A stretch of 30,213 bases of DNA from a virus, in the IMG/VR virus record IMGVR_UViG_3300022926_000073, positions 1 to 30,213 of that record, one strand, 5' to 3'. The position numbers and the translations under genes were made by a program. The notes under the pieces were generated by a model that had not been told where the DNA came from, made no database searches, and saw nothing but the letters and a program-made list of their open reading frames with translations. Below, in pieces: positions 1-19,513 of this stretch; positions within the stretch are counted from its first letter, which is position 1; each line of letters opens with the position of its first letter.

Positions 1-342
1 TACAGCGCTTGATAAACCATCTGCATCAGTAGCAGTGTCTGCGTTACCAGTAAGGTTAGCAGTAATAGTTCCTGCACTGAAGTCACCGGAAGCGTCACGT
101 TGTACAATAGCGCTTGCTGTGTTTGAATCAGTAGCTGCGTCAATGGCATCAGTGTAATACTTACCACCAATGGCATGAATTTCAGCAGTGCTGCCGTCTG
201 AGCCAATAGACTCAATATATAGTTTTGCATTTGCTCCTGAACCACTCTGGTCCTGTGCGTATGCTAATTCGCCTTCTGCAAGTGCCGCCGTAGTTGGAGC
301 AGTTGAGCCAGAAGAGCGTTTAATTTGAATTACTGTTGCCAT
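1..342 (-). CDS. Tail-fibre-like virion protein, N-terminal part (runs off the left edge)
   Basis: The reading frame is open from an ATG at 342 to the window edge, giving 114 residues without a stop. It begins MATVIQIKRSSGSTAPTT and continues with LAEGELAYAQDQ, KLYIES and IHAIGGKYYTDA, an N-terminus typical of marine T4-like phage tail fibres and related to tropism-determinant N-terminal domains. It then passes into a fibre-shaft motif (AIVQRDASGDFSAGTITANL, followed by TGNADTAT). A clear Shine-Dalgarno (GAGGAAG) lies about 5 bases before the ATG. It follows the 79-residue gene on the same strand after a 38-base gap in which I see no promoter. The likely role is host recognition or fibre attachment at the baseplate periphery. 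The family assignment is from sequence pattern; the receptor-binding end is outside the window. Confidence 0.75.
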   Translation of the reverse strand, partial: MATVIQIKRSSGSTAPTTAALAEGELAYAQDQSGSGANAKLYIESIGSDGSTAEIHAIGGKYYTDAIDAATDSNTASAIVQRDASGDFSAGTITANLTGNADTATDADGLSSAV

Positions 343-380
343 TTTACTTCCTCTATTGAGTTATTGTTATTAAAATGTTA

Positions 381-620
381 TTAAAAAGTACCGCCATCTA
401 ATGTTGTAATACTTGAGGTATCTATAGCTAACCCCGATACAGGTGTAGCCTCCCATTTATCTAAGTCTGCGTTGTATGTAAAAGTATATCCATCTTGGGC
501 TCCTGTAAGATCGACATTTGCTAACCCTTCTAGTTTTGTTGCAGTAGTAGTTCTACTACTGGTAGTTACTACCTTAGGCGTTCTTGTGCTTGAAGATGGT
601 ATTACGACTTTAACGGCCAT
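381..620 (-). CDS. Small conserved virion-type protein, 79 aa
   Basis: This is a Thr/Ser-rich small protein beginning MAVKVVIPSSSTRT and ending TLDGGTF. The middle (about residues 30-60) reads GLANVDLTGAQDGYTFTYNA and then DKWEATPV, a pattern common in short proteins encoded beside marine phage tail fibres, where it resembles a fibre head or adaptor strand. Its ATG overlaps the stop of the upstream 108-residue gene in a TAATG junction, which suggests translational coupling. It lies between an Ig-like virion protein and a fibre gene. I do not recognise a named family; a structural or fibre-accessory role is inferred from context. Confidence 0.6.
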   Translation of the reverse strand: MAVKVVIPSSSTRTPKVVTTSSRTTTATKLEGLANVDLTGAQDGYTFTYNADLDKWEATPVSGLAIDTSSITTLDGGTF

Positions 621-946
621 TAGCGAGTTACCTCTGGAGTTACAGTTACAATTCCTTCTAATATTCTTAAAGTTTCTGTAGTATCGTCAATCTCAATATC
701 GTACACATACCGTCCAGCTTTCAGACCTGATGTTTCAGCAGCCGTCAAACTAATAGTTATTTCGCCTGAATTGTCTACTTTAGTAGTTGTAAAATCTACT
801 TTAGTTGAAGTGTAATAACTTTTTCTAAGTTGGGCTGCTACTGTATATGAGGATAGATCTTTAGCGGAACCGTCAGAATTCTCTACTGTAAAAGTAAAAC
901 TGTAGGTTGTGCCTTGATCTATTACAATATTGCTTACTGTAGCCAT
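620..946 (-). CDS. Ig-like, baseplate-upper-protein-type domain virion protein, 108 aa
   Basis: The protein begins MATVSNIVIDQGTTYSFTFT and reads as a single all-beta domain: an opening strand, DGSAKDLSSYTVAAQLRKSY, DNSGEITISLTAAETSGLKA, GRYVYDIEID and RILEGIVTVTPEVTR. This matches the small beta-sandwich seen in many phage baseplate upper or fibre-adaptor proteins (BppU N-terminus-like). It is the first gene of a leftward set (108 aa, 79 aa, fibre) joined by a TAATG overlap with its neighbour. A TATAAATA late box lies 32 bases upstream. No good Shine-Dalgarno is visible before its ATG. The fold assignment is from pattern only. Confidence 0.6.
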   Translation of the reverse strand: MATVSNIVIDQGTTYSFTFTVENSDGSAKDLSSYTVAAQLRKSYYTSTKVDFTTTKVDNSGEITISLTAAETSGLKAGRYVYDIEIDDTTETLRILEGIVTVTPEVTR

Positions 947-953
947 ATAAATA
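946..953 (+). promoter_or_regulatory. T4-type late promoter box, rightward
   Basis: An exact TATAAATA lies on the plus strand, overlapping the start codon of the leftward 108-residue gene. With T4 late-promoter spacing (box at -13 to -6) transcription would begin near 959 and give a leader of about 43 bases to the glycosyltransferase ATG at 1002. It is the only promoter-like element I find directly ahead of the rightward operon. A near-copy (TATAAGTA) follows at 957-964. Confidence 0.45.
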
Positions 954-977
954 TCTTATAAGTATTAGTGTTCTACT

Positions 978-985
978 TATTTATA
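978..985 (-). promoter_or_regulatory. T4-type late promoter box, leftward
   Basis: An exact TATAAATA on the minus strand lies in the short intergenic region. T4 spacing puts the start of transcription near 972, a leader of about 26 bases before the ATG at 946. The geometry is like that of the box upstream of gp48 (30105-30112), which supports a real late promoter for the 108 aa, 79 aa and fibre genes. Confidence 0.55.
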
Positions 986-1001
986 ACATTTCGGACTTGT
1001 A

Positions 1002-1649
1002 ATGAAAACTATTTTGACCTTAAAATATGGTGACAAATATACTTCTGATGACGTAAACAAGATATATACTGACACCAACGGCAAATATAATTATGTATGC
1101 GTGACTGATGATCCTAAAGGACTACATCCTAATATTTATACAATTTCTATTGACCATGAACCAGATGGGCATTGGGAAAAGATTAAACTTTTTCAGTATA
1201 ATTTTGGAAAAACTCTATACTTAGATTTAGATATTTGTATACAAAAAGATATAGATCATTTGTTTGATTATCTTGACAACACCCCGATGATTTGTTATAC
1301 TTATTGGAAGCCTTTAGAATTTCCTTATCACAAAGATGATCGCTGGTCTTATAACTATTTAAGTAATTTTAATTCAAGTGTCATGTTATGGGAAGATGCA
1401 CACCATATATATAATAAGTGGTTAGAAAATCAAGATTATTATATGGTAAAATATGCGGGTGATGATAGATTTTTGTTCCATGAAAACTTCACATTTGAAC
1501 ATTGGCCAGAAGGTGAAATATATTCTTACTGGTTTAATAGAGACGGGTTCCAACCAAATGCTACAATAGCTCTATTAAACGGACAAGAAAAGTTTCCTGA
1601 GTTGAGAGAAAAGTATTATGATGAACTTCGTGTGCATCAAATGGGGTGA
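1002..1649 (+). CDS. GT-A type glycosyltransferase, first of four tandem paralogues
   Basis: A 215-residue putative glycosyltransferase. The N-terminus (TLKYGDKYTSDDVNKIY) is a variant of the K-W-G-x-K-Y-x-P-x-x-V-N signature shared by the next three genes. A DxD motif (D75-L-D77 in LYLDLDICIQKDID) is the expected metal and nucleotide-sugar site of a GT-A fold. Further shared blocks are NSSVMLW (about residue 125) and the C-terminal PEGEIYSYWF. It is the shortest of the four and lacks the HPKYWF/WDR segment of copies 2 and 3, so its acceptor or sugar may differ. Its 3' end overlaps the next gene by 32 bases. Donor and acceptor cannot be read from sequence. Confidence 0.72.
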   Translation: MKTILTLKYGDKYTSDDVNKIYTDTNGKYNYVCVTDDPKGLHPNIYTISIDHEPDGHWEKIKLFQYNFGKTLYLDLDICIQKDIDHLFDYLDNTPMICYTYWKPLEFPYHKDDRWSYNYLSNFNSSVMLWEDAHHIYNKWLENQDYYMVKYAGDDRFLFHENFTFEHWPEGEIYSYWFNRDGFQPNATIALLNGQEKFPELREKYYDELRVHQMG

Positions 1650-2373
1650 TAAGTACACTCCGGATTATGTAAATAATTTATATCGTATGGTTGAGAGAAA
1701 CTATACGAAACCCTTTACCTTTACTTGTTACACAGATGAAACAGAAGGTTTAGAATGTGACACACATCCTATACCTGACGATGGATTATTGCATCCTAAA
1801 TACTGGTTTGGTAAAGAAGGTTATTGTTGGGATAGAGCAAAGTTTCTTGTATTCAATTCTGCACAGTGGTTAGGGTTGCTGGGTAAATGGTGTTACTTTG
1901 ATTTAGATGTTATCATACAAAATAACATAGACGATATAGAAATTCTAGCTGAAAAGCCGAGAATAATACATTGTAATTGGCAGCCAGGCAGGCAGAAAAA
2001 TGATAGAGAATTTTTTGAGATGCGAGGTACTTTTTATAATTCTAGCATGATGTTATGGAATGGCGAACAATGTAGACATATTTACAGTGATGTCTTTCAG
2101 AATGGTGAAATGGTATTCACAACCTTCTATAAAGGTTCAGATAACTATCACTATTGGCGCCAAAGAAGTTTTTGGAAGGACATACCAAGTAATTGGGTTT
2201 ATAGTTACAACAGAGGCATGAAACACCCAGAAGACATTGAACCCTTTATCTATAGACCAGATCCTAAAATCTGCTTATTCAATGTTGATAATACTAAACA
2301 CCCTGACGCTAAAAAACAAATCAAAATAAAAGAGTTAAAAGATGAGGCATTGCTTACTTTATGGGAAAGTTAA
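1618..2373 (+). CDS. GT-A type glycosyltransferase, second tandem paralogue
   Basis: A 251-residue protein opening with FVCIKWGDKYTPDYVNNLY, the array's signature. It then has FTCYTDETEGL, HPKYWF, a WDRAKF segment (about residues 71-76) and the DxD motif D95-L-D97 within YFDLDVIIQNNID. NSSMMLW and PSNWVYSYNRG follow, both shared with its neighbours. Two ATG codons stand in tandem at 1618 and 1621, so either may be the start. The gene begins inside the end of copy 1 and its own end overlaps copy 3 by 13 bases, so the set is probably translated as a coupled operon. The specificity is unknown. Confidence 0.75.
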   Translation: MMNFVCIKWGDKYTPDYVNNLYRMVERNYTKPFTFTCYTDETEGLECDTHPIPDDGLLHPKYWFGKEGYCWDRAKFLVFNSAQWLGLLGKWCYFDLDVIIQNNIDDIEILAEKPRIIHCNWQPGRQKNDREFFEMRGTFYNSSMMLWNGEQCRHIYSDVFQNGEMVFTTFYKGSDNYHYWRQRSFWKDIPSNWVYSYNRGMKHPEDIEPFIYRPDPKICLFNVDNTKHPDAKKQIKIKELKDEALLTLWES

Positions 2374-3197
2374 GAGTAAATTATATATGCTGCAAATGGG
2401 GCACCAAATATGGACCACACTTTGTTAATAAACTTTATAACATGGCCAAGCGAAATACCGATAGCGATAAATTTGATTTTCACTTTTATTGCTATACTGA
2501 TATTAGTGAAGGTCTTGAGCCTGACATTAAAGTTATTGAGTTTCCTGATATTCCCAATATTCATCCTAAGTATTGGTTTGATTCTGATAAGTTCAAGTAC
2601 GGCATGGCTCGTTGTTGGGATAGGCCTAAAACTTTTATTTTTAATACTCACAATTTTGCTCCTGATAAGCCTACTGGTCGGTTCGTTTTTTTCGATTTAG
2701 ACGTAATTATACAAGATGACCTTGAACCTATAATCATGTATGACTTAGAACACCCTACTAAACTAAGAAGTTGGTGGCAGGATCCTAGACCAATGAAAAG
2801 TAGACAATTTAAATTGGGCCATGGTGCCTATACAAATGGTTCATGTATGGTTTGGAGTGACGATCAAACTGAATGTATTTGGGATGATGTATTAGAACAC
2901 CAGGAACGCATATGGTATACTTTTACTGATGGTACAGACAATTATCATAGTTGGCGTTGGGGTATGTTTAGACCTGACGGCAAAGAGCCTCTCTGGAAAC
3001 ATTTCCCAAAAGAATACGCATACTCTTATAATAGAGGTAGGGATTGGGATTCAGAAGATTTAGAGGTTGATAAGTATCGCAGTGATGCTATATTGTGTAT
3101 ATTTAATGTTGACTTACTACCATTTGAGGATTCTAGTAGAGGTAAAACAAAACAAGATAATTTAGCAGATCCTAACTTGTTGGAGCATTGGAAATGA
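2361..3197 (+). CDS. GT-A type glycosyltransferase, third tandem paralogue
   Basis: At 278 residues this is the longest copy. It carries the signature YICCKWGTKYGPHFVNKLY, then FYCYTDISEGL, HPKYWF (about residues 69-73), CWDRPKTF and the DxD motif D112-L-D114 in FFDLDVIIQDDLE. C-terminal shared blocks are NGSCMVW, DGTDNYHSWRWGMF and AYSYNRGRDW. The DNYH-x-WR block is shared with copy 2 but not with copies 1 or 4, so copies 2 and 3 are probably the closest pair. It overlaps both neighbours. A role in adding a sugar to a phage or host glycan is inferred from the fold and from the two methyltransferases downstream. Confidence 0.75.
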   Translation: MGKLRVNYICCKWGTKYGPHFVNKLYNMAKRNTDSDKFDFHFYCYTDISEGLEPDIKVIEFPDIPNIHPKYWFDSDKFKYGMARCWDRPKTFIFNTHNFAPDKPTGRFVFFDLDVIIQDDLEPIIMYDLEHPTKLRSWWQDPRPMKSRQFKLGHGAYTNGSCMVWSDDQTECIWDDVLEHQERIWYTFTDGTDNYHSWRWGMFRPDGKEPLWKHFPKEYAYSYNRGRDWDSEDLEVDKYRSDAILCIFNVDLLPFEDSSRGKTKQDNLADPNLLEHWK

Positions 3198-3877
3198 TTA
3201 ACATATATACTGTGAAGTGGGGATTTAAATATGGCCCTGAACACGTTAATAAAATTTTTGAACAGTGTAAGGAACATATTACAGAAGAATTTGAGTTTTA
3301 TTGTTTAACTGAACACCCCGTTGGATTATCTCCTGAAATAAATGTTATTCCTTTACCTCGTGATAACTATTATGAGAAGTGGTGGAATAAACTGTATTTG
3401 TTTGACAAGTATCTTGTTAAGCAGGAGGGAGAAAAACTATTCTTAGATTTAGATATTATTATACAAAAAAATATTGATTGTATTGTAAATTATGATCCAG
3501 AAGATAACCTGGTGTTTGTTAAAACACATTGGCACAATATAGTTAAAATGAAAAAAGATTTGAAAGATATTCCTCACAAGTATACTGATCTTAACTCAAG
3601 TATTCTTAGGTGGAATGACAAACTAGATATTGATAAAATAACAAAATTTGTAAAAGATTATGCTAGTCAAATGTTTTTTTATTATCGAGGATTAGATAAC
3701 TTATTCGGTCATCAAAGAAGAAGACTTTTAAATATTGATTTTTTTCCTTCTGGTTGGGTATACAGTTATAACTATGGATACATATGGCCTTCAGATATTG
3801 AAGAAAAGAAATTTAGAGATGAACCTTTAGTATGTTTATACGACTCAATGGAGCGACCACAAGATGTTAAACTATAA
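3194..3877 (+). CDS. GT-A type glycosyltransferase, fourth tandem paralogue
   Basis: The start is chosen at the ATG at 3194, which overlaps the stop of copy 3 as ATGA. The frame can be extended to a TTG at 3188, but the ATGA junction and alignment with the other copies favour 3194 (227 residues). It opens INIYTVKWGFKYGPEHVNKI and continues FYCLTEHPVGL, then the DxD motif in LFLDLDIIIQKNID (about residues 82-95). NSSILRW and PSGWVYSYNYG complete the family pattern. Its end overlaps the following methyltransferase gene by 14 bases. The specificity is unknown. Confidence 0.74.
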   Translation: MINIYTVKWGFKYGPEHVNKIFEQCKEHITEEFEFYCLTEHPVGLSPEINVIPLPRDNYYEKWWNKLYLFDKYLVKQEGEKLFLDLDIIIQKNIDCIVNYDPEDNLVFVKTHWHNIVKMKKDLKDIPHKYTDLNSSILRWNDKLDIDKITKFVKDYASQMFFYYRGLDNLFGHQRRRLLNIDFFPSGWVYSYNYGYIWPSDIEEKKFRDEPLVCLYDSMERPQDVKL

Positions 3878-4523
3878 TTTTTTAAATAACTATAAAAACT
3901 GGGGCAGTGCTTTAGATAAAATTGGACATGAGATGCCTTATAAACATGAGGACTTTCGTAAATCTTTAAACCCAAACTCAATGGAAGCTTCTATTTGGTT
4001 GGTTGAAGAATTACAAAAAGTTTTAGGATCAGTAGAAAAGAAACTCAACATAACTGTTTTAAATTCTTGGTTAGGATTTCCTTTAGTTCCTTTACTGTGT
4101 GAGAATCTAAATGTAGAAAAATTGAATCTTATAGATGTAGACCGGGACGCCTTAGAGTTGTCAAAAGTTTTTAATAAGTATTATACCGATCAAAATATTG
4201 ATCTTAATCATATTAATTGGGATGTTCCGTTTGCTTTTCACGATATAAATGCTTTAAACACAGACGTAGTTATATCTTTGTCAGCAGAAACAATGTATCC
4301 ATTGAGAGAACTCACAACAGCGAATCCTGAATGTATATTTGCTGTACAAAATTCTAATTTAATAAAAGAAATGTACGGTATTAATTGTGTTGATAGTATA
4401 GAAAAACACGCAGAAAACACAGGCATTAAGGATGTTTTGTATAGTGGAAACATCAAACAAAATTATTGGACTTTTGATGGTTTAAATGAATATGACCGTT
4501 TTATGATTATTGGTAGTAAATAG
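3864..4523 (+). CDS. Class I SAM-dependent methyltransferase-like protein
   Basis: A 219-residue protein with the layout of a class I methyltransferase. A beta1/loop segment (ITVLNSWLGFPLVPLL, residues 63-78) takes the place of motif I but lacks the usual GxGxG. The acidic end of beta2 follows in LNLIDVDRDALELS (residues 87-100), and a motif IV-like strand in DVVISLSAETMYPL (about residues 134-147). The NSWLG form with an SAE block resembles phage methyltransferases that depart from the textbook glycine loop. It overlaps the fourth glycosyltransferase by 14 bases and precedes a second methyltransferase by 2 bases, which suggests a joint task such as methylating a sugar or a carrier. Substrate unknown. 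Confidence 0.62.
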   Translation: MLNYNFLNNYKNWGSALDKIGHEMPYKHEDFRKSLNPNSMEASIWLVEELQKVLGSVEKKLNITVLNSWLGFPLVPLLCENLNVEKLNLIDVDRDALELSKVFNKYYTDQNIDLNHINWDVPFAFHDINALNTDVVISLSAETMYPLRELTTANPECIFAVQNSNLIKEMYGINCVDSIEKHAENTGIKDVLYSGNIKQNYWTFDGLNEYDRFMIIGSK

Positions 4524-4525
4524 TT

Positions 4526-5122
4526 ATGATGGGAAAAAATGGTACTAATGAAGACACTAAAGAATTGTGGAAGATATTACCCGAAAACTCTTTGGGAGCT
4601 GAAATAGGTGTATGGAAAGGAGAGTCTACTAATAGATTTTTAAGAAGAGCTAGACATATACATATGGTAGATCCCTGGAGTATAACAGCGTATGATGAAT
4701 CTACTGATTGGTTGAATATAGGTGTTGACGGCATTATGAAAAGATATGCTTACATGGTAGGGTCAACTAAACGTGAAGATTATGAAAAATTTTATGATGA
4801 ATTATATGAATCCGTGTGTGAAAAGTTTAAAGACAAACCAGTAACCATACACAGAATGACGTCTACAGAATTCTTCAATATGTATGAAGGTGAAAAATTA
4901 GATTGGATTTATATTGACGGTGACCATGCGTATGAAGCGGTATATTCAGATTTAAATAACTGCTTAAAAGTTATGAAAGAAGGTGCTAGAATATACTGTG
5001 ATGATATTGCCGCGGATAACAGACAACACCCAGGAGTTAGACAAGCGGTATCACAATTTTGTAAAGAGAATGACCTAACTCCTAGAAGAAAATTTAAAAA
5101 TCAGTGCATCATTCAACTATAA
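4526..5122 (+). CDS. Class I SAM-dependent methyltransferase (Methyltransf_24/TylF-like)
   Basis: A 198-residue protein with recognisable methyltransferase motifs in order: motif I GAEIGVWKGEST (residues 24-35), HMVDPW at the end of beta2 (46-51), LDWIYIDGDHAYEAVYSDL around residues 125-143, and GARIYCDDI (153-161) followed by HPGV. The YIDGDHxYE and CDDI blocks are typical of the metal-dependent O-methyltransferase-like group that often acts on sugars or small molecules. ATG codons stand at 4526 and 4529; either could start. It is the last rightward gene and its stop overlaps the end of the leftward oxygenase-like gene by 10 bases. Methylation of a sugar added by the upstream transferases is a reasonable inference only. 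Confidence 0.72.
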   Translation: MMGKNGTNEDTKELWKILPENSLGAEIGVWKGESTNRFLRRARHIHMVDPWSITAYDESTDWLNIGVDGIMKRYAYMVGSTKREDYEKFYDELYESVCEKFKDKPVTIHRMTSTEFFNMYEGEKLDWIYIDGDHAYEAVYSDLNNCLKVMKEGARIYCDDIAADNRQHPGVRQAVSQFCKENDLTPRRKFKNQCIIQL

Positions 5123-5769
5123 ACAGAAGCATCTTCTTCTGATATATCTTCAATCATATTGCGCCACATATCTAAATGTGGTACAATAAATCCTAAGGTA
5201 ACACGAGGTTCATATGTTCCTGCACAGTGATAATAAACTTTGTCGGGTTCTCTGCCTCTGCCATAGTATCCTACTTTACAAGTCCAACCGGGCTTGTCTT
5301 CCATAGTTACTATTTCTTTTGTAAGAGGATCTAGGTATCTAAAGAAACCATTGCCTGTGGGTGAATAAGACAATAGTATATTATAACCGGAAGCATTCCA
5401 GTTATTATGCCAACCCATATAACCGCCTTCAGGATAGAAAACATTTACTGCTTGATTTTTAGCTCCCAAGAATTGACACAGCTCTTGATCTAATTCATTT
5501 CTTCTCTGCTTATGTTCTCTAGGTACTTGTTCGTCTGATGCTATGTCTACAGAAATAGTAGTTTCCGGCCACCCAATATGTTTACCATCTTTGTCTACTA
5601 TGTGTTTTAGATATTGTTCTCCGCATGCTTCTTCTAATTTCATTCCGCGGTGACGGCCTTCATGGTGTGAGATTTCAGTAAGTTTACTGTAGTCGCTAGA
5701 AAAAAACCAATCACTATAATCAGTCAATGTATCTAAAAGTTCACTGCTTTTTATATCAATCCACTTCAT
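5113..5769 (-). CDS. 2OG-Fe(II) oxygenase-like protein with an HxN site
   Basis: A 218-residue protein whose second half resembles a 2-oxoglutarate/Fe(II) dioxygenase core. NVFYPEGGYMGWHNNW (residues 109-124) corresponds to the strand carrying the first metal ligands, GFFRYLDP and KPGWTCKVGYYG are internal strands, YYHCAG (179-184) supplies the distal His (H181), and EPRVTLGFIV (187-196) supplies the Arg (R189) expected to bind 2-oxoglutarate. The usual HxD is here H121-N-N123. The gene starts at an ATG overlapping the stop of the upstream glycosyltransferase (ATGA). It may hydroxylate a protein, sugar or base, or be inactive; the target is unknown. The N-terminal 100 residues match nothing I recognise. 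Confidence 0.6.
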   Translation of the reverse strand: MKWIDIKSSELLDTLTDYSDWFFSSDYSKLTEISHHEGRHRGMKLEEACGEQYLKHIVDKDGKHIGWPETTISVDIASDEQVPREHKQRRNELDQELCQFLGAKNQAVNVFYPEGGYMGWHNNWNASGYNILLSYSPTGNGFFRYLDPLTKEIVTMEDKPGWTCKVGYYGRGREPDKVYYHCAGTYEPRVTLGFIVPHLDMWRNMIEDISEEDASVYS

Positions 5770-6506
5770 CTTTCTAATTCTTCCTTAGGTATTGTATGAT
5801 GATAAAGCACAATCTCAGTTCCCTTTAACTCGTCTGGAGTATATCCATTGATAAAATTCCATCTAGCATCCGGTTCTTTTATGTAACCCCAATTAATATC
5901 ATGTCCACCGTAAGTTAATAGGCGCCACATGGTGAACGTATCCCATTTAATGGCATCCTTAGGATAATGTGCTATGTCATAATCAGGTTCCCATTGTTTT
6001 AAATATTCAGTCCACCAGGCACCCATAAGATCCATCATTGCTGGAGTTTTTCTATATATGAAGAACCCACAGTGACAGGTCATTTCTTCAGTATTAGATA
6101 GCTTAGTTAATTTTGCATTGTAAGGTCTATTTTTTGTAAACACAATGTCTTTGTCATCAGGCAATTGATCAAAGACATTTACAATATCTTCGTGCATACA
6201 CATCATGTCTGCATCTAAATAGCAAGTTATGTCATAGGGTGTTTTATTCAATGCCCAGAGTTTGGTACGAATATGAGAAGGGACATCGTCTTTGATAATA
6301 TTATCAAACAAGTCATAGTCTTCTTCTTGTACCCATTCTTTTTCTGTAAAGAAAGTTATGTTTGCTTCAGGCCAAAAGTCTCTAACTGATTCTGCTAAAA
6401 GCTTAGCATACCTATAGAATGCGTGCTTCTTAGAAGCAACAATTATAAAGCCTTTACTTTGCTTCTTCTTCTTCGCTTTAAAGCCTTTACTTTGCTTCTT
6501 CTTCAC
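5766..6506 (-). CDS. GT-A glycosyltransferase with duplicated Lys-rich N-terminus
   Basis: A 246-residue protein with a GTG start at 6506, preceded by AAGGA about 8 bases upstream. The core begins GFIIVASKKHAFYRYAKLLA and carries FFTEKEW, a HIRTKLWALNKTPYD segment (about residues 78-92) and a D98-A-D100 motif in TCYLDADMMCM, all typical of GT-A glycosyltransferases of the GT8 kind. MTCHCGFFIYRKT and a C-terminal LYHHTIP complete the pattern. It is not closely like the four-copy plus-strand family, as it lacks the KWG signature. The first 20 residues contain KKKQSKGF twice, owing to a 33-base duplication. It sits between a charged hypothetical protein and the oxygenase-like gene, both overlapping it. 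Confidence 0.72.
   Translation of the reverse strand: MKKKQSKGFKAKKKKQSKGFIIVASKKHAFYRYAKLLAESVRDFWPEANITFFTEKEWVQEEDYDLFDNIIKDDVPSHIRTKLWALNKTPYDITCYLDADMMCMHEDIVNVFDQLPDDKDIVFTKNRPYNAKLTKLSNTEEMTCHCGFFIYRKTPAMMDLMGAWWTEYLKQWEPDYDIAHYPKDAIKWDTFTMWRLLTYGGHDINWGYIKEPDARWNFINGYTPDELKGTEIVLYHHTIPKEELER
6446..6504 (-). repeat. 26-base direct repeat, 33-base offset, across a gene junction
   Basis: Bases 6446-6471 and 6479-6504 are identical over 26 positions. The 33-base offset is 11 codons, so the glycosyltransferase frame is kept and gains the residues KAKKKKQSKGF. The copy nearer the start also encodes the last residues and stop of the upstream 162-residue gene. Confidence 0.9.
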
Positions 6507-6975
6507 TTTCCATGTCCTTTATAACTAAAGCTGTTGTCATAACGTGTACTTCCATGACACTTTTGGCTTTACGTATCTTTCTTTTCATCTCTGAATTTTT
6601 AGAATTTTTAACAGCATCAATTTCAAATGCTAACAGTTTTGCTGAAAACAATTCTTCTTGCAATGCTCTTGATCGTTGTGATTCTCTACGCTCTGCTTGT
6701 TTTCTAAGGTTTTCATTACGTCTACGTAAACCGTCATCAGTATTTTTCATTATCTGTTCTTCTGTATATAACTCAAGAACAGCTTTCATATCCGGATTTG
6801 TTCCGTCTTTATCCTGAATAGAAGCAATGCTTTCTTTGCCATTAGGTTGTTTAATGGTTACGATGAGATGACGATTTTCCTTATTAGCCCAATAAGGATG
6901 TAGGTATTGTTTACCTGTAGAGGTAATCTGTTGTCCGGTAACCGGGGCGTCTGCGGGTGCAGTAACTTCTGCCAT
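6487..6975 (-). CDS. Charged conserved hypothetical protein of T4-like marine phages
   Basis: The frame opens at 6987, but the start at 6975 (MAEVTAPADA) is preferred: GGAG stands 6 bases before that ATG, inside what would otherwise be codons 2-3. The 162-residue product has a short disordered N-terminus, a compact segment YLHPYWANKENRHLIVTIKQ with NGKESIASI, then a strongly charged helical or coiled-coil stretch (RRRNENLRKQAERRESQRSR, about residues 83-102) and FEIDAVKNSKNSEMKRKIRK. It resembles small conserved proteins of cyanophages as I remember them, but I cannot name a function. It is the first gene after a consensus sigma70 promoter and overlaps the glycosyltransferase by 20 bases. Confidence 0.6.
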   Translation of the reverse strand: MAEVTAPADAPVTGQQITSTGKQYLHPYWANKENRHLIVTIKQPNGKESIASIQDKDGTNPDMKAVLELYTEEQIMKNTDDGLRRRNENLRKQAERRESQRSRALQEELFSAKLLAFEIDAVKNSKNSEMKRKIRKAKSVMEVHVMTTALVIKDMESEEEAK

Positions 6976-6999
6976 AATATTCTCCATAATTAAAACTAT

Positions 7000-7028
7000 A
7001 TTATATTAGTATATAGTCAAGTTGTCAA
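7000..7028 (-). promoter_or_regulatory. Consensus sigma70 (early-type) promoter, leftward
   Basis: On the minus strand TTGACA (7028-7023) and TATAAT (7005-7000) are separated by exactly 17 bases, a perfect match to the bacterial housekeeping consensus. The -35 box overlaps the TGA stop of the upstream repeat protein. Transcription would start around 6993, just ahead of the GGAG/ATG of the 162-residue gene, and would cover that gene, the glycosyltransferase and the oxygenase-like gene. In T4-like phages such promoters serve early genes. Confidence 0.75.
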
Positions 7029-8950
7029 GCAGTTCTTAACCAAAGTTTCAATGTAGATACAGTATCTTTTGATGCCTGTATTGTATCTCCAGCGTATTGT
7101 CCAGTATATGCACCAGTGTATGTGCCGCTGTATGCTGAAGTACCTACATAGTTGCCAATATAGGAACCTGTGTATGTGCCAGTGTATGTGCCGCTGTATG
7201 CTGAAGTACCTACATAGTTACCAGTGTAGGAACCTGTGTATGCGCCAGTATAAACACCTGTGTAAGTTTTAGGACCAGTGTAATATCCAGTATAGTTACC
7301 AGTGTATGAACCAGTATAAACACCTGTGTAAGTTTTAGGACCAGTGTAATATCCAGTATAGTTACCAGTGTATGAACCAGTATAAGAACCAGTATATGTT
7401 GAGGTACCTACATAGTTGCCTGTATAGTCACCGGAGTATGCGCCAGAATAAGAACCAGTATATGTTGATGTACCTACATAGTTACCTGTGTATTGACCTG
7501 AATAAGCACCTGAATAAGAACCAGTATATGTTGATGTACCTACATAGTTACCTGTGTATTGACCTGCATATTGGCCCGCGAAGTTTCCTGTATACTGTCC
7601 TGTGTATGTTCCGGAAAATGATCCATAATTTACACCTGCGTAATACAGAATATACGAACCGGTATAATTGCCAGAAAATTGACTAGAGTAGCTACCTGTA
7701 TATTGACCAGTATACTGACCAGAGTATGTTTTATTTCCTACATATCCACCTGCATAAGCACCTGTATATGCACCAGTATACTGACCAGAGTATGTTTTAT
7801 CTCCTACATATCCACCTGCATAAGCACCTGTATATGCACCAGTGTATGTGCCGCTGTATGTTTTATCTCCTACATATCCACCTGCATAAGCACCTGAATA
7901 GTTACCGGAGTATGCGCCAGAGTAAGCAGAAGTACCTACATAGTTACCAGTATAGTCACCTACATAAGCACCGGCGTATGTGCCAGAGTAAGCAGAAGTA
8001 CCTACATAGTTACCAGTATAGTCACCACTATAAGTACCGTCATACGAACCGACGTATGTTTTGGCGCCTGTGAAAGCTCCTGCATAACCGCCATCGTAGC
8101 TACCAGCATATGGGCCACTGTATGTTTTGGCGCCTGTATAGTTACCAGTATAATTACCAGTATAATTACCTGAATACTGTTGTGAAGCAACTGCTTGTCT
8201 AGTATCAGTTAGGTTGTCGCCCATCTGAACCCAAGTTCCAGTACCTGGAATTGATGCTTGAAGTTTATATGTACCTACACCTGAGTCAATAATTCTGTTT
8301 CTGAAATTCGGTACCATCTGCTCAATTTCAGCAGCACTCATCTGTTTTAAGCCACTATCATATTTTAGTGAAGTGTAATCAGCATTTGCTGAGGTTGTGG
8401 GAGCAGTTTTTTGCCACAAATATTTTAGATTATCGCCACTAAGAGAAGAATCTGTAATAGTATATCTTGAAGTCCAAGTACCACCGCTTGGTGCAGAAGC
8501 TGCTAATGTATATTGACCTACAGTATAGTCAGTCTCAGAAACCATATCACCGATTACTTTATCTAAAACATCAGTGTCTAAATCAGAATCAGTCATTTCT
8601 TTTACGGCTGAATCATATCCTACAAGACGATTTGTTATACTTTCTGTTGCCGATGCTGTTACTTGTTTGAAGTAATATGTAGTAGAAGTTGTAGACCCAG
8701 AAGCAGGGTGAGTTCCAATCGCTTCTGTTCTTTCTGTATCAACAAAGGTACCTATTGAAGTACCCGCAAGAGCATTTGCGGTATCTACGTTAAGCTCGGC
8801 AGTGCCGGTACCATCCGTATCACTAGCAAACTTATTTGTAATTACATAGGATAAATATTGATTAATCTCACCATCTGACATTTCCTGCAAACCCTGAAAA
8901 TTTGCCGAAGTAATCGGTGATCCTGATGCTTTAATTCTTAATGGCTGCAT
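7025..8950 (-). CDS. Virion-type protein with a long 22-residue Tyr/Gly repeat domain
   Basis: A 641-residue protein. Residues 1-258 contain three copies of a short helix-like motif (LQEMSDGEINQYL, VKEMTDSDLDTDVL, LKQMSAAEIEQMV, near residues 21, 116 and 201). The last two are linked with beta segments of the form VG-x-Y-x-L-x-A-S-x-P followed by GTW. Residues 259-622 are almost wholly Y-x-G-x tetrads arranged in 22-residue units of four tetrads plus one hexad (Y-x-G-x-[SK]-[TA]). A short tail ends LKLWLRTA. No catalytic motif or signal peptide is seen. It lies in the fibre and baseplate block next to a fibre-type protein, so a virion fibre or sheath-like role is inferred. The Shine-Dalgarno is weak (AAGAGA about 11 bases before the ATG). 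Confidence 0.7.
   Translation of the reverse strand: MQPLRIKASGSPITSANFQGLQEMSDGEINQYLSYVITNKFASDTDGTGTAELNVDTANALAGTSIGTFVDTERTEAIGTHPASGSTTSTTYYFKQVTASATESITNRLVGYDSAVKEMTDSDLDTDVLDKVIGDMVSETDYTVGQYTLAASAPSGGTWTSRYTITDSSLSGDNLKYLWQKTAPTTSANADYTSLKYDSGLKQMSAAEIEQMVPNFRNRIIDSGVGTYKLQASIPGTGTWVQMGDNLTDTRQAVASQQYSGNYTGNYTGNYTGAKTYSGPYAGSYDGGYAGAFTGAKTYVGSYDGTYSGDYTGNYVGTSAYSGTYAGAYVGDYTGNYVGTSAYSGAYSGNYSGAYAGGYVGDKTYSGTYTGAYTGAYAGGYVGDKTYSGQYTGAYTGAYAGGYVGNKTYSGQYTGQYTGSYSSQFSGNYTGSYILYYAGVNYGSFSGTYTGQYTGNFAGQYAGQYTGNYVGTSTYTGSYSGAYSGQYTGNYVGTSTYTGSYSGAYSGDYTGNYVGTSTYTGSYTGSYTGNYTGYYTGPKTYTGVYTGSYTGNYTGYYTGPKTYTGVYTGAYTGSYTGNYVGTSAYSGTYTGTYTGSYIGNYVGTSAYSGTYTGAYTGQYAGDTIQASKDTVSTLKLWLRTA
7085..8176 (-). 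repeat. Tandem 66-base repeats encoding Y-x-G-x tetrads
   Basis: The stretch encodes residues 259-622 of the repeat protein: an 18-residue opening unit, six regular 22-residue units (277-408), an irregular 66-residue middle equal to three unit lengths (409-474), six more regular units (475-606) and four closing tetrads (607-622). Some neighbouring units are nearly identical in DNA, notably the two that contain YYTGPKT (residues 519-562), while others have diverged at wobble positions and in the variable residue. Confidence 0.9.
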
Positions 8951-8964
8951 GTTTTTTTATTCTC

Positions 8965-9459
8965 TTAGTTCAGACGATTGCCAGACGAATCATACACAAT
9001 AGTTTCGACCATTGTGTTCCAATTTGAGCTACTAGTGCCTACAAGTTTAGAAGATGTTCCTGCAGGAATCGTTATAGCAGTGTTGATGCTACCACTATTT
9101 ATAGTTCCTGAGGTGTTGGGATATATTTTCACACTAACACTTGTAGCATTAATAATAGTATATAAAAGTCCTTCTTCGGCAGTTGGTAATTTAATTCCTT
9201 GATTGTTTGTAGCAGTTGTAACAATATTAAAAGTTTTGGATAATAATGTTGCACCACCTTGTGTAGTTCCGGCTGCAGCAACTGTTGTTCCTATTGAAGC
9301 AACAATATCTCCACTTATTGTGACATCGGCAACATCAATGTTGTCTCCGGATTCATACTTGTCCTCATTTAAATTAATGAAGTTAGTATCCATCTCCGTG
9401 TTAGTTAATGCAGATCCCTTAGCGGATGCACCTGTGTCTCTTGTTACAATAGTGGCCAC
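8965..9459 (-). CDS. Fibre-type virion protein, 164 aa
   Basis: The start is a GTG at 9459. The sequence ATIVTRDTGASAKGSALTN, EMDTNFINLNEDKYESGDNI and VADVTISGDIVAS is typical of short fibre-head or adaptor proteins of marine T4-like phages. The second half is beta-rich: KTFNIVTTATNNQGIKLP, YTIINATSVSVKIYP and the closing WNTMVETIVYDSSGNRLN. The gene lies 3 bases after the 77-residue gene and 14 bases before the Tyr/Gly repeat gene, on the same strand. A structural role is inferred from context; no enzyme motif is seen. Confidence 0.65.
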   Translation of the reverse strand: MATIVTRDTGASAKGSALTNTEMDTNFINLNEDKYESGDNIDVADVTISGDIVASIGTTVAAAGTTQGGATLLSKTFNIVTTATNNQGIKLPTAEEGLLYTIINATSVSVKIYPNTSGTINSGSINTAITIPAGTSSKLVGTSSSNWNTMVETIVYDSSGNRLN

Positions 9460-9462
9460 GTA

Positions 9463-9696
9463 TTAGTTCCCGGATAACTTTTCTATAATTAAATTTAAAC
9501 TTTCTTTGATGTCTTTTATATCCTTATTCAATGTATTTATATCCTTTTGACATTGAATAATTTTATTTTTTTCTTCATGTCGTAAAGCTCTTGCCAATTT
9601 ATATTCAGCAAGAGCTTTGTTGTCAGTGCTCAAAATTGCTTTGGAGCCTGTTTCTCTAATTAAATTATTTTCGCCTTCTACTTTTTGGTATTTCAT
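9463..9696 (-). CDS. Small coiled-coil protein, 77 aa
   Basis: A short, charged protein beginning MKYQKVEGENNLIRETGSKA. The second half (about residues 40-75) has heptad-like spacing of I and L (KIIQCQKDINTLNKDIKDIK, then ESLNLIIEKLSGN), which predicts a parallel coiled coil. Its ATG overlaps the stop of the giant baseplate-associated gene as TAATG. A small coiled-coil protein next to large fibre genes would fit a fibre-associated or assembly role, but I recognise no named family. Confidence 0.6.
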   Translation of the reverse strand: MKYQKVEGENNLIRETGSKAILSTDNKALAEYKLARALRHEEKNKIIQCQKDINTLNKDIKDIKESLNLIIEKLSGN

Positions 9697-12600
9697 TATA
9701 CAGCCAACGCATATGCTCTAAGATTTGCAGATTTAGGTACTTGTGAAGTATTGGAACTCACATGTACAATTTTAATAGCATATGATTTGAAGCCTGTATA
9801 TAAATTACTTGTCATAGTAGCTGTCAATGTAGCACCTGCACCATTTCCTGATATTGTAGGAGCAACTGCAAGTGTTGGGGTACCTGAGTATCTACCTGGA
9901 TCTTCAACACTAATTCCCGTAATTTCGCCACTGCTGCCAACTGAGGTAATAATTGCTCTACCTCCTCTGCCGTCGCCACCAGTTATTCTTATTGTATCGC
10001 CTGTATCGTAACCAGTACCTGCCGCGTCAATAGTAATTGAAGAAATTTCTTTAGTAACGTATTCTAGTACGCCTGAGCTATTAACACCTATGTTATCAGA
10101 TCCTCTAGCAGGAATCTTGTAAACATATTCTGCCCAACCTTTAGCTGAGGTATCAAACGGTGAAGATTCAACTTCTAGTTCTTTCCAAATAATATCTTCT
10201 AAGAAGTCGCCTGAATCATCAGCTTTGTTTTGGAACTTAGCATATACTTTAACATCACCTTGTGCTTTCTTGTTGTCTAGATATACTTTCAAATCTTCTG
10301 CGTCTTGTCCGTCTGCGAGAACAACCTTCTTACTGATGTATCTAGTATCAGCTGAGCCGCCGGTTGCAACTTCTTCACCGCTTGCGTCATTGTTGATCTT
10401 GTTAGTAATCATCAACATACTGGTAGAACCTGCATTAACCATTGGACTCAAATTATCTACTTCAGTCTTAAGGCCAAATTGCACACTAGCTGTTGCGCCA
10501 CGAGTTGAATCAAAACTATTTGAATAACTATATATTTTACATGGGTTCGACAATTCAGTTGTTTTATTAATAACAATGTCTGAGAATGTTTCGGTATTAC
10601 CTGAACCCGCACCCATAAAGTTAGGAGTTTGAGTCCTAGTAGTGTGTGAAGAACGAGTTAGCAACATCCTAGGAGTAAGTTTACCATAACTACCATAGTT
10701 AGCTACCCTAGACTTCAGAACAAATGCGTCAATAATTCTATCATGTATTGTACCGATTGTAACGTCTGTTGTTCCATCAGTTACTTTGCTACTATGGGTA
10801 TCATCAAAGTGACCTTGTGTGATTTCAATTTCATGGGTATTATACTTAACTATCTTTCTTGCAACTCTACCTCTATTTAATCTTACAGTAGCAGTAGCTC
10901 TGTCTGTACCAGAAGAAGGATTTGCAATAGTAATTGTAGGTGCTCTAAAATAACCTGAACCGTAATCAGTTACAGTGAATCCGGTTACTTGTCCACTACT
11001 ATTTGTGTTGGCAGTAAGAGCAAGTCCAGTACCACCTGTGTTTGTATTATCCACCTCAACAACAACAGAAGTTGAGCTTGTAGCATATCCTGCACCGTCA
11101 TTTGTGATGTTAAATGTAAATCCATGAACAAATGTACCTGGATCGAATGAAGTAGATTCATCAAACTCAATCCAATCCATGTTTTTGTGTTTCATGTTTA
11201 CAACAAACTCACGGCCAGTTCTAAAGAAACAACGCTTGATTCTGAACATCAAATCTTGATTCTGATGAGGTGTCCAAGATCTGTTGTTTGCTGAAGTAAA
11301 CAGAACACCTGCTGCTGCTTGTTTACTAATTACTCTGGAAGTTCCTACTTCATTTTGACCCAACTCTGCCAACCAAATTTCATAATTAGGATCGTTTCTG
11401 TCTGGTATTGGTACCAAACAATATTCAGTATTGTTCTCTAGGTAAATAGGATTGTCAAATCTAAAAGTAGTTGACTTAAATGTAACTGCACCAGAAGCAG
11501 TAGGAGGACACGGAGTACAATCATTTCTTCTCTTGTGTACTCTTCCTAATGAAGTAGGACCGGGCATACCGTTAATTACTTCTCTAACTTCTAACGTAAT
11601 ACCGTTATCACTTGCTTCAGTTGCTATTCGTTTGAAGAACAAATCTACTTCTGACATGTACATACCACCAGGCATACCTTCAACCAAGAAAGTTTGTGCC
11701 ATTGGATCCCAGCCGTTCGGGCAATACATTCCGTACATATCTGTCATCATGCTGCCAAGAGCTATCATCTCAGCTTTTACTTGTTCTCTTAATGCTTTTT
11801 CTATATCTGCACTATCAATATCGTAGGTGATTTCAATATCTGAATCTACAGTTGTAATTGTAGGAGTAGCCTCGCCTACACTAGGGTCAGTAAAGTTGTT
11901 GTTTGATGCTGATACTTTTGGTTGAGTATATGTATTAGTCGTAGTCATGTAAACATTGCTAAAAGTATTATTAGCAGTATTTACCAAATGAGCTGGATTA
12001 GCACCTGATACTACGTTGGTTAGTGATACTGCATCAGAGCTAACTGCGGCAGAAGTAGATGATTCTACTTCATTAACAGTGCCTGTATCTTGTGTAAATA
12101 TAGAATTTACAAGACCTGCAGCGCTGTCCTGATACAATATTGAGGTTTGAGTATATCCGTGATCTATTATCTCCGGGTAAGAATCTACCTTAGTAACCAC
12201 AGTATTGACAATAGGATCTTTCTTAATCAACTTACTTCTGAGCTTAGTAGTAGTTGATCTAGGAGCTACAATATGCTGTTTAGTAGTTGTAGTAGTAGAA
12301 ATCTCATGCTGAGCAGTAAAGAAAGCAGAAGCATAAGATTCTACATTCATATAATGTTTTTCTGCACCAGAAGCTACAACCATAATCTCATGTGTTCCTA
12401 CTTTTAATTCACCATCAGAAACACTAATAGTTCCTGAAGCATTTCCTAAGCTATCAGACCACACAGTCCCCTTGTCTATACCGCCTATAACAACATAGTG
12501 AGGCATGTTTTCACATAGACCTTCTACCGAGAAGTCAATGGCTATAGGTCTCATATATGAGGTCAAAGACTTAACTACTTCTGTTTCAGAATCTGTTTCT

Positions 12601-15600
12601 ACAATTGGACCAGGTAGAATACCGTTATAATAAGGATCTATTTTATACCCTGTTTCAATAGTGTTTGTAGTAACTTCTTCATAAACATCCCATTGTTTAG
12701 TGGTCCACGAATAGTATCCTTCTTCAGCATAATCAGAAGTACCTTCTCCCGCCCTTTCAGAAACTACGTATTCTGTTTCTGTTTCTGACCCGACTAAATC
12801 TGTGTATGAAGTTTTAGTTACAGTAATAATAGGATCTGAATCTTCCCAACCGTTCCATGTTACATTCCAAGGTTCAGGATAAACAAACTGACTGTACTCG
12901 CCTGTTTTATCTTCAAGTACAATGTCATAAGATTCATAAGACATCCAAGCATCTTCTGTGGGAGAAATACTCATAACACCCGCACAAACTCTAGTAGGAG
13001 GAGTAAAAGCTATACAGGATTGGGTAGATTCGTCCCAAGTATAACCAGGTCCACAGGGTGGTCTTTCTTCTATTGAAGTGTCATTAATAATTACGCTTGT
13101 AGATTTTGAACCAGTAGAATAACCAAGGCCGTCAGTGGCGCCTAAAGTAAATGTTAGAGTTTCATCTGCGGTATCAGAATCTTCTGCTATATTAAAGGTA
13201 ATACTAGCGGTTGCGATAGGCGCTGTGTTAGTAAATGTTAGGGTTCCTGTTAAACTTGCTCCACTTATATCAGCAGAATCAACACCTGTTACTGTATAAT
13301 CTACGGTATTGCTTGTTCTGTGATTTTCTGCTTTCACTGAAATTGTAACTGAGCTACCTTCATCCACTCTATTTTTACTTCTAATTAAAGTATAGATTGG
13401 ATTTGGATCATCTATAGGAGCGTCATCAACATCTGTGTCTGTAGTATTATCGGTGTCAGTTGCTGGAGTATCCTGAATAGGATCAGCCGGAACCGGTATT
13501 TCAATATAGTTATTAACTACAATAGTTTCAGATGTTGGAGCCGGTATGTCACCTAGTTTAGTTTCTAAATCATCTACACCTACTATAAGTGCCGCAATAT
13601 TAGCAGCATTCTGAGCTGCATTATTGAGAGCGGTGTTCACACCATTCTGCGCATTAGCCGCCGCTTGAGCTGCACTAGCTGCTCTTTTTAATGCTAAGTT
13701 TGCTGTATCTAAAGCATTGTCAATGGCTTCTGCTACTGGGTCTGTTGTGTCATACAACAATTCAATAACAACAGGTACTGCCTGGCTGGCCTGCATCTGT
13801 TCTGCATACACTCTTTGTTCAAAGGGGACGTGGAATACAGAACCTGATTGTCCAGCACCGTTACCTGAAGTATCTATTGCTCTGAAATCTATAGTAGACT
13901 CGTTGAAATATGCACGAAGATTTTGACGTTTGCCATCAATGGATGCTTTGAAGTCGGGATGACCTGAAGAGGCAACGCTATGTCCCTTGAAAGAATCTAC
14001 CAATAGCCCGTGTTTAAATCTGTCAACACCGGAAGAATCAAGTATCTGTTGATCTCTAGCTTCTTTTTCTAACATTGAAAGAGAAGTATAATATTCAATA
14101 TTTGTAATTCTTCTTTCTAGTTTACCAATGTCTCTCATTGTGTAATGAGGATTTTCTAAATTAGAAACTCTAAGTGCGAGATCCGTTCTATTATAGAACA
14201 TTGCGGACTTAGGAGTCAAGCAAGGAAACGGAGGACATACAAATGTTGCTAATGTCATCTTGCCTGAATCACTATAAGGAGCAGCTACTTTTTCTCCTTT
14301 GGGTGCTTCTGCGATAGAAACTTCTCCGTTCATATCCACTGCACATCTAAATGCCTGAGGAACATAAGAGTAAATATCAGTTTCAAATACACCATCTATA
14401 GTTGGGAAAGTATAATTTGACCATTCAAGTGTTTCTATAGAACTAGGATTATATGAAGTAATATCTGATGCTGTTCCATTAAGCTTATCAAGAATTTCAT
14501 CTTCGGCACGACAATAAGGTCTAAAATCTACACAATCTCTCAGGTCATATACCCCATGTTTTTGAGATGTAAATATAGGGATTTCCTGATAATATATCTG
14601 TGTAGAAGCAGCTGTGGCTGTTTCTGAGCTAGGTAACGGATAAGAATCCACTGTAGTAAAACTTACATTGGTACTTCCTCTTGAAAAATAATCAAACTCA
14701 ACATTTAAATATTTGTATGTGCTAAGATTTAGTGTACTTGAACCTTTCTTTGTTATAAAAGCAAGTCCATAGTAGTTATCTTTTTGACCATTAGTTAATC
14801 TAAACTCTGCTGTTACATCTTTTGAACCAGCACTGAATCCAGAAGTAATAGTATCCCCTGAATTTATTTGTGAGGTTGTTGTTGAAAGAACAATAGTATC
14901 CGCATCCGGAACACTGGTAACTGTTCCCACAATCACACCATTAGAATCTTTGAGTAACGAGCCTAGAACTACTTCTGTGTCAGCAGCGCCTCCACTGCCT
15001 GTAATTGTATTTGAACCATCAGAAGTCCAGGTACCTGTAAGAGTATCTTCAGTATATGCTGTTACTGAACGTAGTTTATATACATCTGGAACGCCTAACG
15101 AGTATTGACCACCAGTGTGATTGGGGTGGTTATCAATATCTATTCTTATATTTTGTTGTTTTTGTGCTGTTTTGCTTATAGGGCTAAGAGAAGTACCAGT
15201 ATTGGTAACAGTTGTGTGTGCATATGCTTTAAATGAAGCGATTCCTGCTGTAACAGCACCTCCTAGATCTATTCTAACGTAACCACCTGTTGATGTATCG
15301 CCAGAATCATATAGTGTTTCTGCGTCTATGATTTGACCTATTTTATAGGTTACGCTGTTTGCTGTAAACTCAGTAGTTGCTACTAGTATAAGATTAGCAT
15401 CAAGATTTGCGGCGGAATTTGCCCAGGGGAAATTTTCAAGATTTCCACCATCTGCTTCAATATCAAATGTTCTTGATGTAATACTGGTTATATCAATTTC
15501 TTTAAAATATTCAAATTGATAGTTATTAGCATTACTACTGTCTTGTAATGTTTTAATAGACTTTTTGGGCAAACGCCACAACATTCTATTATAGTCGGTT

Positions 15601-17111: not shown

Positions 17112-17124
17112 CTTTCTTTAATTC

Positions 17125-19023: not shown

Positions 19024-19034
19024 CTATTTTCCTA

Positions 19035-19484
19035 TTAAGAAATAGTAATAGTCCAGGTAATAGTCATACTATCTGCAGCGCCTTTGTTAATAGTGCTGTA
19101 AACAGTACGACAAAGCATTGTACCACCTGAAGCAGCATTAAAAATACCTGCTTCTGTCAATGCACCAGTACCTGTACCTGCACCAAATGTTGCGACATAT
19201 GCAATAGCATTAGCAGTAATATCACTTGAAGTAAGAGCAGTACGTGAACCTGCAACTGCAGCACCAAGAGCAGTATCAGCTCCACCAGCAGCCGTGTTAT
19301 CGGTACCTACTTCCATATGTGACATAACATTAGCAGTTGCATCTTTCATACGGCTGGCAATGAATTCAAGACCATCATTTACAACCAAGTTGTTTACTGT
19401 AAAATCTTCTTTAACATTACCTTTTTCATCTTTAAGTACGACATGGACTTTGCCTGTCGCTTTCATTGTTTCTTTGTTGAACAT
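19035..19484 (-). CDS. Small fibre-type virion protein between gp7-like and gp8
   Basis: A 149-residue protein beginning MFNKETMKATGKVHVVLKDE. It contains the block MEVGTDNTAAGGADTALGAA, a TEAGIFNAASGGTMLCRTVY segment and the ending INKGAADSMTITWTITIS, a pattern common in small tail-associated proteins of marine phages. TGGAGA lies 8 bases before the ATG. It interrupts the T4 order of genes 7 and 8. I infer a virion component; its position in the particle is unknown. Confidence 0.65.
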   Translation of the reverse strand: MFNKETMKATGKVHVVLKDEKGNVKEDFTVNNLVVNDGLEFIASRMKDATANVMSHMEVGTDNTAAGGADTALGAAVAGSRTALTSSDITANAIAYVATFGAGTGTGALTEAGIFNAASGGTMLCRTVYSTINKGAADSMTITWTITIS

Positions 19485-19513
19485 TTTTGATCTCCAAAAA
19501 TTTTTAGTTTACA

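Follow-up and report, generated by a model that had tools for sequence, protein, structure and literature searches.

The 30,213-nucleotide virus record analysed here (IMGVR_UViG_3300022926_000073, positions 1-30,213, complete; hereafter, the window) carries an exact sigma70-type promoter sequence, TTGACA-N17-TATAAT, among structural genes and directly before a conserved operon of three genes (hereafter, the trio). Comparison with relatives makes it probable that this sequence is, in one branch of uncultured marine T4-like phages, a working promoter of the early class, at a position occupied in sister phages by a T4-type late promoter. The pair itself very probably represents a real, selected sigma70-type promoter in the late structural region, and early expression of the trio is likely.

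An exact sigma70-type pair upstream of P162

The window has a GC content of 36.7% and contains T4-like baseplate genes on the minus strand. The sigma70-type pair (Table 1) agrees with the consensus in 12 of 12 positions, and the distance between its boxes, 17 bp, lies within the 16-18 bp range of sigma70-type promoters. The initial annotation had pointed to this pair and had considered that composition alone would produce it far less than once in a sequence of this size. Both statements hold: the site, which is on the minus strand, is the sole exact spacer-17 copy in the window, compared to 0.02 copies expected from shuffles of the whole window on both strands, and the corresponding chance expectation for spacers of 15-19 is 0.07. 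A scan of bases 1-20000 likewise gave no second 12/12 site, and sites of at least 9/12 taken together were about as frequent there as expected from shuffles (82 found vs. 76.5 expected). Given that many motifs were on view, such a low chance figure is weak by itself, and the relatives are decisive.

The stop codon of the upstream fibre-like gene (TGA, 7027-7025) falls within the TTGACA box, and the spacing of the elements predicts a transcript start at about position 6993. The GGAG site that the initial annotation had described as good was found 6 nt before an ATG, so that the first gene is most likely the 162-aa frame and not the 166-aa ORF. The overlaps between the P162, glycosyltransferase-like (GT) and 2OG genes indicate a single operon. 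None of the late motifs TATAAATA, NATAAATA and CTAAATA occurs in the 85 nt upstream of P162 in the window. The analysis detected no terminator-like site between the fibre stop codon and the operon, so late read-through is possible.

Table 1. Positions of the promoter elements, genes and late motifs in the window.
Feature	Position	Strand	Remarks
Sigma70-type pair TTGACA-N17-TATAAT, full site TTGACAACTTGACTATATACTAATATAAT	7028-7000	minus	12/12
-35 box TTGACA	7023..7028	minus	sequence match
-10 box TATAAT	7000..7005	minus	sequence match; spacer 17
Ribosome-binding site GGAG	6982..6985	minus	6 nt 5' of ATG at 6975
Conserved core TTGACTATATACTAAT (clade form TTGACTATATAGTATT, palindrome ACTATATAGT inside)	7005..7020	minus	from comparison of relatives
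Operator-like dyad ACTATAT-N9-ATATAGT	6995..7017	minus	over spacer and -10; P = 0.096, not significant in the window alone
P162, charged protein, 162 aa	6487..6975	minus	first gene
Glycosyltransferase-like gene	5766..6506	minus	second gene; 20-nt overlap with P162
2OG-Fe(II) oxygenase-fold gene	5113..5769	minus	third gene; 4-nt overlap with the GT gene
Fibre-like gene, YTG/YAG repeats	7025..8950	minus	upstream of P162
Late motif TATAAATA	9534..9541	minus	82 nt 5' of the ORF that ends at 8965; of the upstream late motifs that lead to a gene start, the nearest
Late motif TATAAATA	978..985	minus	before the p108 gene at 620-946
Late motif TATAAATA	946..953	plus	56 nt 5' of the convergent GT/methyltransferase cassette (ORFs 1002-5122)

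Sequences of two promoter classes at the same site in relatives

Relatives were collected from viral contigs with two P162 queries, the first of which yielded 5 loci while the second was limited to the best 80 of 224 relatives, and with a glycosyltransferase query (best 80 of 105 relatives, overlapping the P162 sets). From the resulting 162 loci, 9 without a readable P162 start or without a P162 match were dropped, leaving 153 loci, among which several contigs are represented by two loci, with 65 distinct upstream types. In this set of top-ranking relatives, the T4 late promoter NATAAATA precedes P162 in 26 of the 65 types. Exact sigma70-type pairs were found in 7 of the 39 non-late types (shuffle mean 0.010), pairs of at least 11/12 with spacer 17 in 12 (shuffle mean 0.075), and pairs of at least 10/12 with spacer 17 in 22 (shuffle mean 0.945), where the shuffle figures overstate independence because the upstream types are related. 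Conversely, not one of the 26 late-type upstream regions contains a pair of at least 10/12 with spacer 17, that is, NATAAATA and the sigma70-like pair are mutually exclusive in the same upstream regions. All 12 types at 11/12 or better have a spacer of 17 and a -10 box located 22-37 nt from the ATG; when this distance is limited to 20-40 nt, the counts among the 39 non-late types are 7 exact, 12 of at least 11/12 and 15 of at least 10/12. The sequence CTAAATA, given as a late promoter form of phage Aeh1 in a passage of PMC1524935, occurs in 6 of the 39 non-late types, 2 of which also have a sigma70-like pair. In two late-type loci (L004, 5946-6000, and L005, 5923-5980), the stretch that separates the late motif from the start of P162 contains a hairpin with a T-rich tail, recognised by eye.

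A tree of the three operon proteins, built with a quick method for 60 of the 65 upstream types (the other 5 types, for which at most one of these proteins was available, were omitted), places the window in a clade of 22 rows (SH-aLRT 100) and, within it, in a subclade of 7 rows (97). Conservation of the motif wherever the gene set occurs, which the initial annotation had proposed as a check, was found in part of the tree. Pairs of at least 11/12 are present in 6 of the 7 rows of the window's subclade (3 exact) and in all 5 rows of a separate second clade (SH-aLRT 100; 4 exact and one at 11/12, with unrelated spacers), whereas in the 15-row sister subclade the pair is poor or missing (at most 10/12, the -10 box mostly being just 13-14 nt from the ATG), and throughout an 18-row clade (SH-aLRT 99) it is replaced by the late promoter TATAAATA. 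Because the spacers are unlike between clades, the boxes have been kept and the spacer has not. On the tree, upstream regions must have switched between late and not-late a minimum of 5 times. A search centred on the second clade added no further upstream types inside that clade; more distant new loci were inspected and left out of the counts.

Exact pairs in larger relatives

Larger relatives contain 18 exact pairs in 165 kb, 13 in 156 kb, 20 in 162 kb (G025) and 15 in 125 kb (G026, a member of the sister subclade), and the reversed-pattern control was near zero (1 for the 162-kb genome). In the complete phage C48C1, exact pairs are located directly before the genes for the late sigma factor, SbcD, sliding clamp, DNA polymerase and a methyltransferase; its P162 site has no clear sigma70 pair and no late motif. 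In G025, where the P162 promoter is exact, such pairs precede the genes for DNA polymerase, primase, thymidylate synthase, UvsY, GTP cyclohydrolase and QueE, and among 10 downstream proteins scanned, 6 could be named, 2 belong to families of unknown function, 2 had no match and none was structural. Four of the 20 exact sites in G025 are within ORFs of at least 150 aa. Only 2 of the 20, one of them within a gene, fall between 77 and 132 kb, a region that includes homologues of the window's structural genes. All 15 exact sites of G026 are at 8.9-67 kb, and none was found among its homologues of the window's structural genes (78.7-101.9 kb). The 30-kb window has a single copy, at P162; exact motifs before replication and nucleotide genes were seen in the relatives G025 and C48C1, and it is from these genes that we infer early timing in the window's phage.

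Upon infection, host RNA polymerase with the housekeeping sigma factor would bind TTGACA-N17-TATAAT, and transcription, beginning near position 6993, would proceed through the overlapping P162, GT and 2OG genes. Later, read-through from late promoters upstream of the fibre gene could provide a second, late supply of the trio. The benefit of such a schedule might be surface modification or fibre maturation ahead of virion building.

A palindromic core within the probable promoter

The spacer of the window promoter contains a core (Table 1) that is conserved among relatives. With at most 2 mismatches, the core is confined to the P162 upstream site across 888,441 bases of loci, and in the 125-kb genome G026 TTGACTATATAGTATT occurs once, the next best sequence having 3 mismatches. 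Most members of the 22-row clade retain the core within 2 mismatches, with variable -35 and -10 boxes, and in the 15-row sister subclade TTGACTATATAGTATT is intact in most rows and better kept than the boxes. The core also travels with P162 in relatives that have an additional gene between the fibre gene and P162. This gene (L098, 4625-5960; L033, 4642-5950; L141, 1-330) encodes what we take to be a relative of CapK/phenylacetate-CoA-ligase-type adenylating enzymes. In promoters of the second clade, an inverted repeat spans the -10 box; its length is 7-10 bp and its arms differ per lineage (P = 0.003 for L163, 0.028 for L168, 0.001 for L053, and 0.060 for L050); the form seen upstream of P162 in these four loci is ATTATA-N7-TATAAT. 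No notable inverted repeat was found over the promoter in L125, L129 and L171 (P = 0.47-0.70).

These observations allow a more specific scenario, which we advance tentatively: in a clade of T4-like phages, the trio may have moved from late to early expression by promoter exchange at one site and, in addition, come under a dedicated regulator acting via a palindromic operator over the promoter. If true, this would be a single-site regulatory switch within the late region. It is rather unlikely that the selected element is the palindromic core itself (ACTATATAGT in TTGACTATATAGTATT), for example as the site of a phage or host regulator, with the sigma70 boxes secondary and working in some members only. 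The retention of the core next to variable boxes in the 22-row clade, its single occurrence in G026 and the second-clade repeats are compatible with such a role; however, the second clade and L091 have the -35/-10 pair and lack the TTGACTATATAGTATT core, inverted repeats are common in AT-rich DNA, the window dyad is not significant, and three promoters have no notable repeat at all. A sigma70-type promoter as the selected element remains the preferred reading.

Comparison with neighbouring genes and late promoters

A sigma70-like pair of at least 10/12 was found at none of the 305 placed starts of eight neighbouring genes, the counts being limited to starts that could be placed. In a copy-count control that included one locus per upstream type (64 loci and 624,878 bases, with the C48C1 locus excluded), 7 exact pairs were detected at the P162 site and 1 elsewhere, inside a gene. 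Taken together with the shuffle counts, these two comparisons largely rule out a chance origin. Exact or 11/12 matches within genes do exist, at G025:96198, at position 7397 of L053 and, at 11/12 on the reverse strand, in a glycosyltransferase-like gene, so an exact match alone is no proof of a promoter, and the window's pair could in principle reflect chance or coding constraint. We consider this highly improbable, given that the window site is intergenic save for the end of the fibre gene and that several lineages share the pair, with unlike spacers, at this position, its count being about 700 times the shuffle mean (7 vs. 0.010), with nothing comparable at the neighbouring starts.

The nearby 11/12 site on the reverse strand, which is conserved, is a coincidence of the coding sequence. 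A sigma70 promoter serving the opposite-strand cassette was considered as a candidate and dropped: both this site and G025:96198 are inside coding sequence. The cassette (1002-5122, plus strand of the window) faces the operon and consists of glycosyltransferase-like and methyltransferase-like genes.

Consistent with the earlier description of a housekeeping promoter within a late region, the flanking genes keep TATAAATA-type promoters: in the non-late loci, a late motif of this type is present before the ORF preceding the fibre gene in 17 of 30 cases and before p108 in 15 of 15, and each of the 19 non-late contigs tested contains TATAAATA, in most cases more often than the reversed control. 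The retention of plain TATAAATA before neighbouring genes in related contigs, and the lack of NATAAATA and CTAAATA at the window site, make it very unlikely that this site is a diverged late promoter read by a phage gp55-type sigma factor, even though relatives carry TATAAATA at the same place and the late consensus, as a passage of PMC1524935 indicates, varies among T4-like phages.

Conservation of the operon

The order of fibre, P162, GT and 2OG genes was found, where the contig was long enough, in nearly all of the 85 tabulated loci with either promoter type; these loci were found via the first or second gene, and viruses without the trio would escape. The operon is usually followed in these loci by a convergent glycosyltransferase/methyltransferase cassette, and phage C48C1 has the trio at the same place and in the same order. 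This constant gene order in the tabulated loci, whatever the promoter, indicates that the gene set is not a recent insertion, so that the suggestion of the initial annotation, in which a self-contained module has entered the fibre region together with its own promoter, is highly improbable, notwithstanding that the clade's core accompanies P162 when another gene lies upstream and that accessory glycosyltransferase-like genes are numerous in the region.

Relation to known promoters

For T4-like phages, early promoters in front of accessory genes have been reported; according to part of PMC1524935, they are also found 5' to novel ORFs, and a section of PMC2984593 describes a sigma70-like motif that precedes early genes of S-PM2 and Syn9. 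Like these T4-like and cyanomyovirus early promoters, the window has a TTGACA/TATAAT-like pair, a short leader and a ribosome-binding site, and the pair of its relatives precedes replication and nucleotide genes; unlike them, it is located in the fibre/baseplate region, where sister phages have a late promoter, and includes a palindromic core conserved in one clade. Early and late promoters that overlap are described, in the same section of PMC2984593, for the middle mode of RB49, which is also proposed for S-PM2 and Syn9. An early promoter together with probable late read-through could similarly provide early and late expression of the trio, but no late motif overlaps the window site, and the late supply would come from upstream promoters. 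The T4-type late promoter TATAAATA (gp55/gp33/gp45) occupies the orthologous position, in the form NATAAATA, in the 26 late upstream types, whereas the motif is absent at the P162 site in the window and its clade.

The host recognition cluster of pelagimyophages, as outlined in part of PMC7029224, is a variable part of the structural module of marine T4-like phages in which tail fibres accompany numerous glycosyltransferases, and the window region likewise has fibre and glycosyltransferase-like genes; a passage of the same paper states that late promoters could not be predicted in pelagimyophages. Among the open-licence papers searched, no title or abstract dealt with an early promoter at this place. 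As far as the literature searched extends, what is new is the conserved core and the change of promoter class at a single orthologous site, the gene set being unchanged. The many glycosyltransferases of the marine T4-like host-recognition region may act by an early change of the host surface against rival phages or by a late change of the phage's own fibres. A natural promoter swap in front of the same genes would turn timing into a testable handle on their role, and would show how a phage could retime an operon via a few dozen bases.

Proteins of the operon and the fibre gene

A nucleotide search of a phage collection with the trio gave no match, and protein searches identified one named relative, Phage C48C1. 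PHROG and Pfam contained no family for the trio, and sequence-profile searches of the PDB gave nothing credible. The P162 model (pLDDT 87.9) consists of a three-stranded sheet and long helices; Foldseek provided no confident fold (best E = 0.12 in the PDB and 0.05 in a viral library), and the VIA-align scores (Z = 7.2 to a small three-helix domain and at most 6.5 to Hsp70 lids) are too low to be informative for helical folds. The position of the gene suggests a fibre-related role. Longer versions of P162, with 216-218 aa, are encoded in L168 (3358-4005) and L050 (4313-4966), and in the L168 phage the C-terminal motif KLEAFEI..IKNSK..IRRAKS..EV occurs twice.

For the GT protein, the match to Pfam Glycos_transf_2 was under the cut-off (E = 0.07), and D98 and D100 (DxD) are invariant in 27 aligned rows. 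The model of the 2OG protein (pLDDT 93) adopts a double-stranded beta-helix fold, clearly matching prolyl hydroxylases, with PHD2, P4H and relatives as the best PDB matches (Z of at most 10.7, 145 aligned, rmsd 3.3). H121, N123, H181 and R189 are invariant in this protein, and the HxD/E...H metal triad is absent, all 32 of 32 rows having H121-x-N123...H181. With HxN in place of HxD/E, the chemistry is uncertain, and the protein would be either inactive or endowed with a variant iron site; oxygenases that lack the carboxylate and have a variant iron site exist.

The distance from the fibre start to P162 is variable among relatives, and in the window the fibre gene contains, at 7107-8170, 66-base repeats that encode YTG/YAG-type units.
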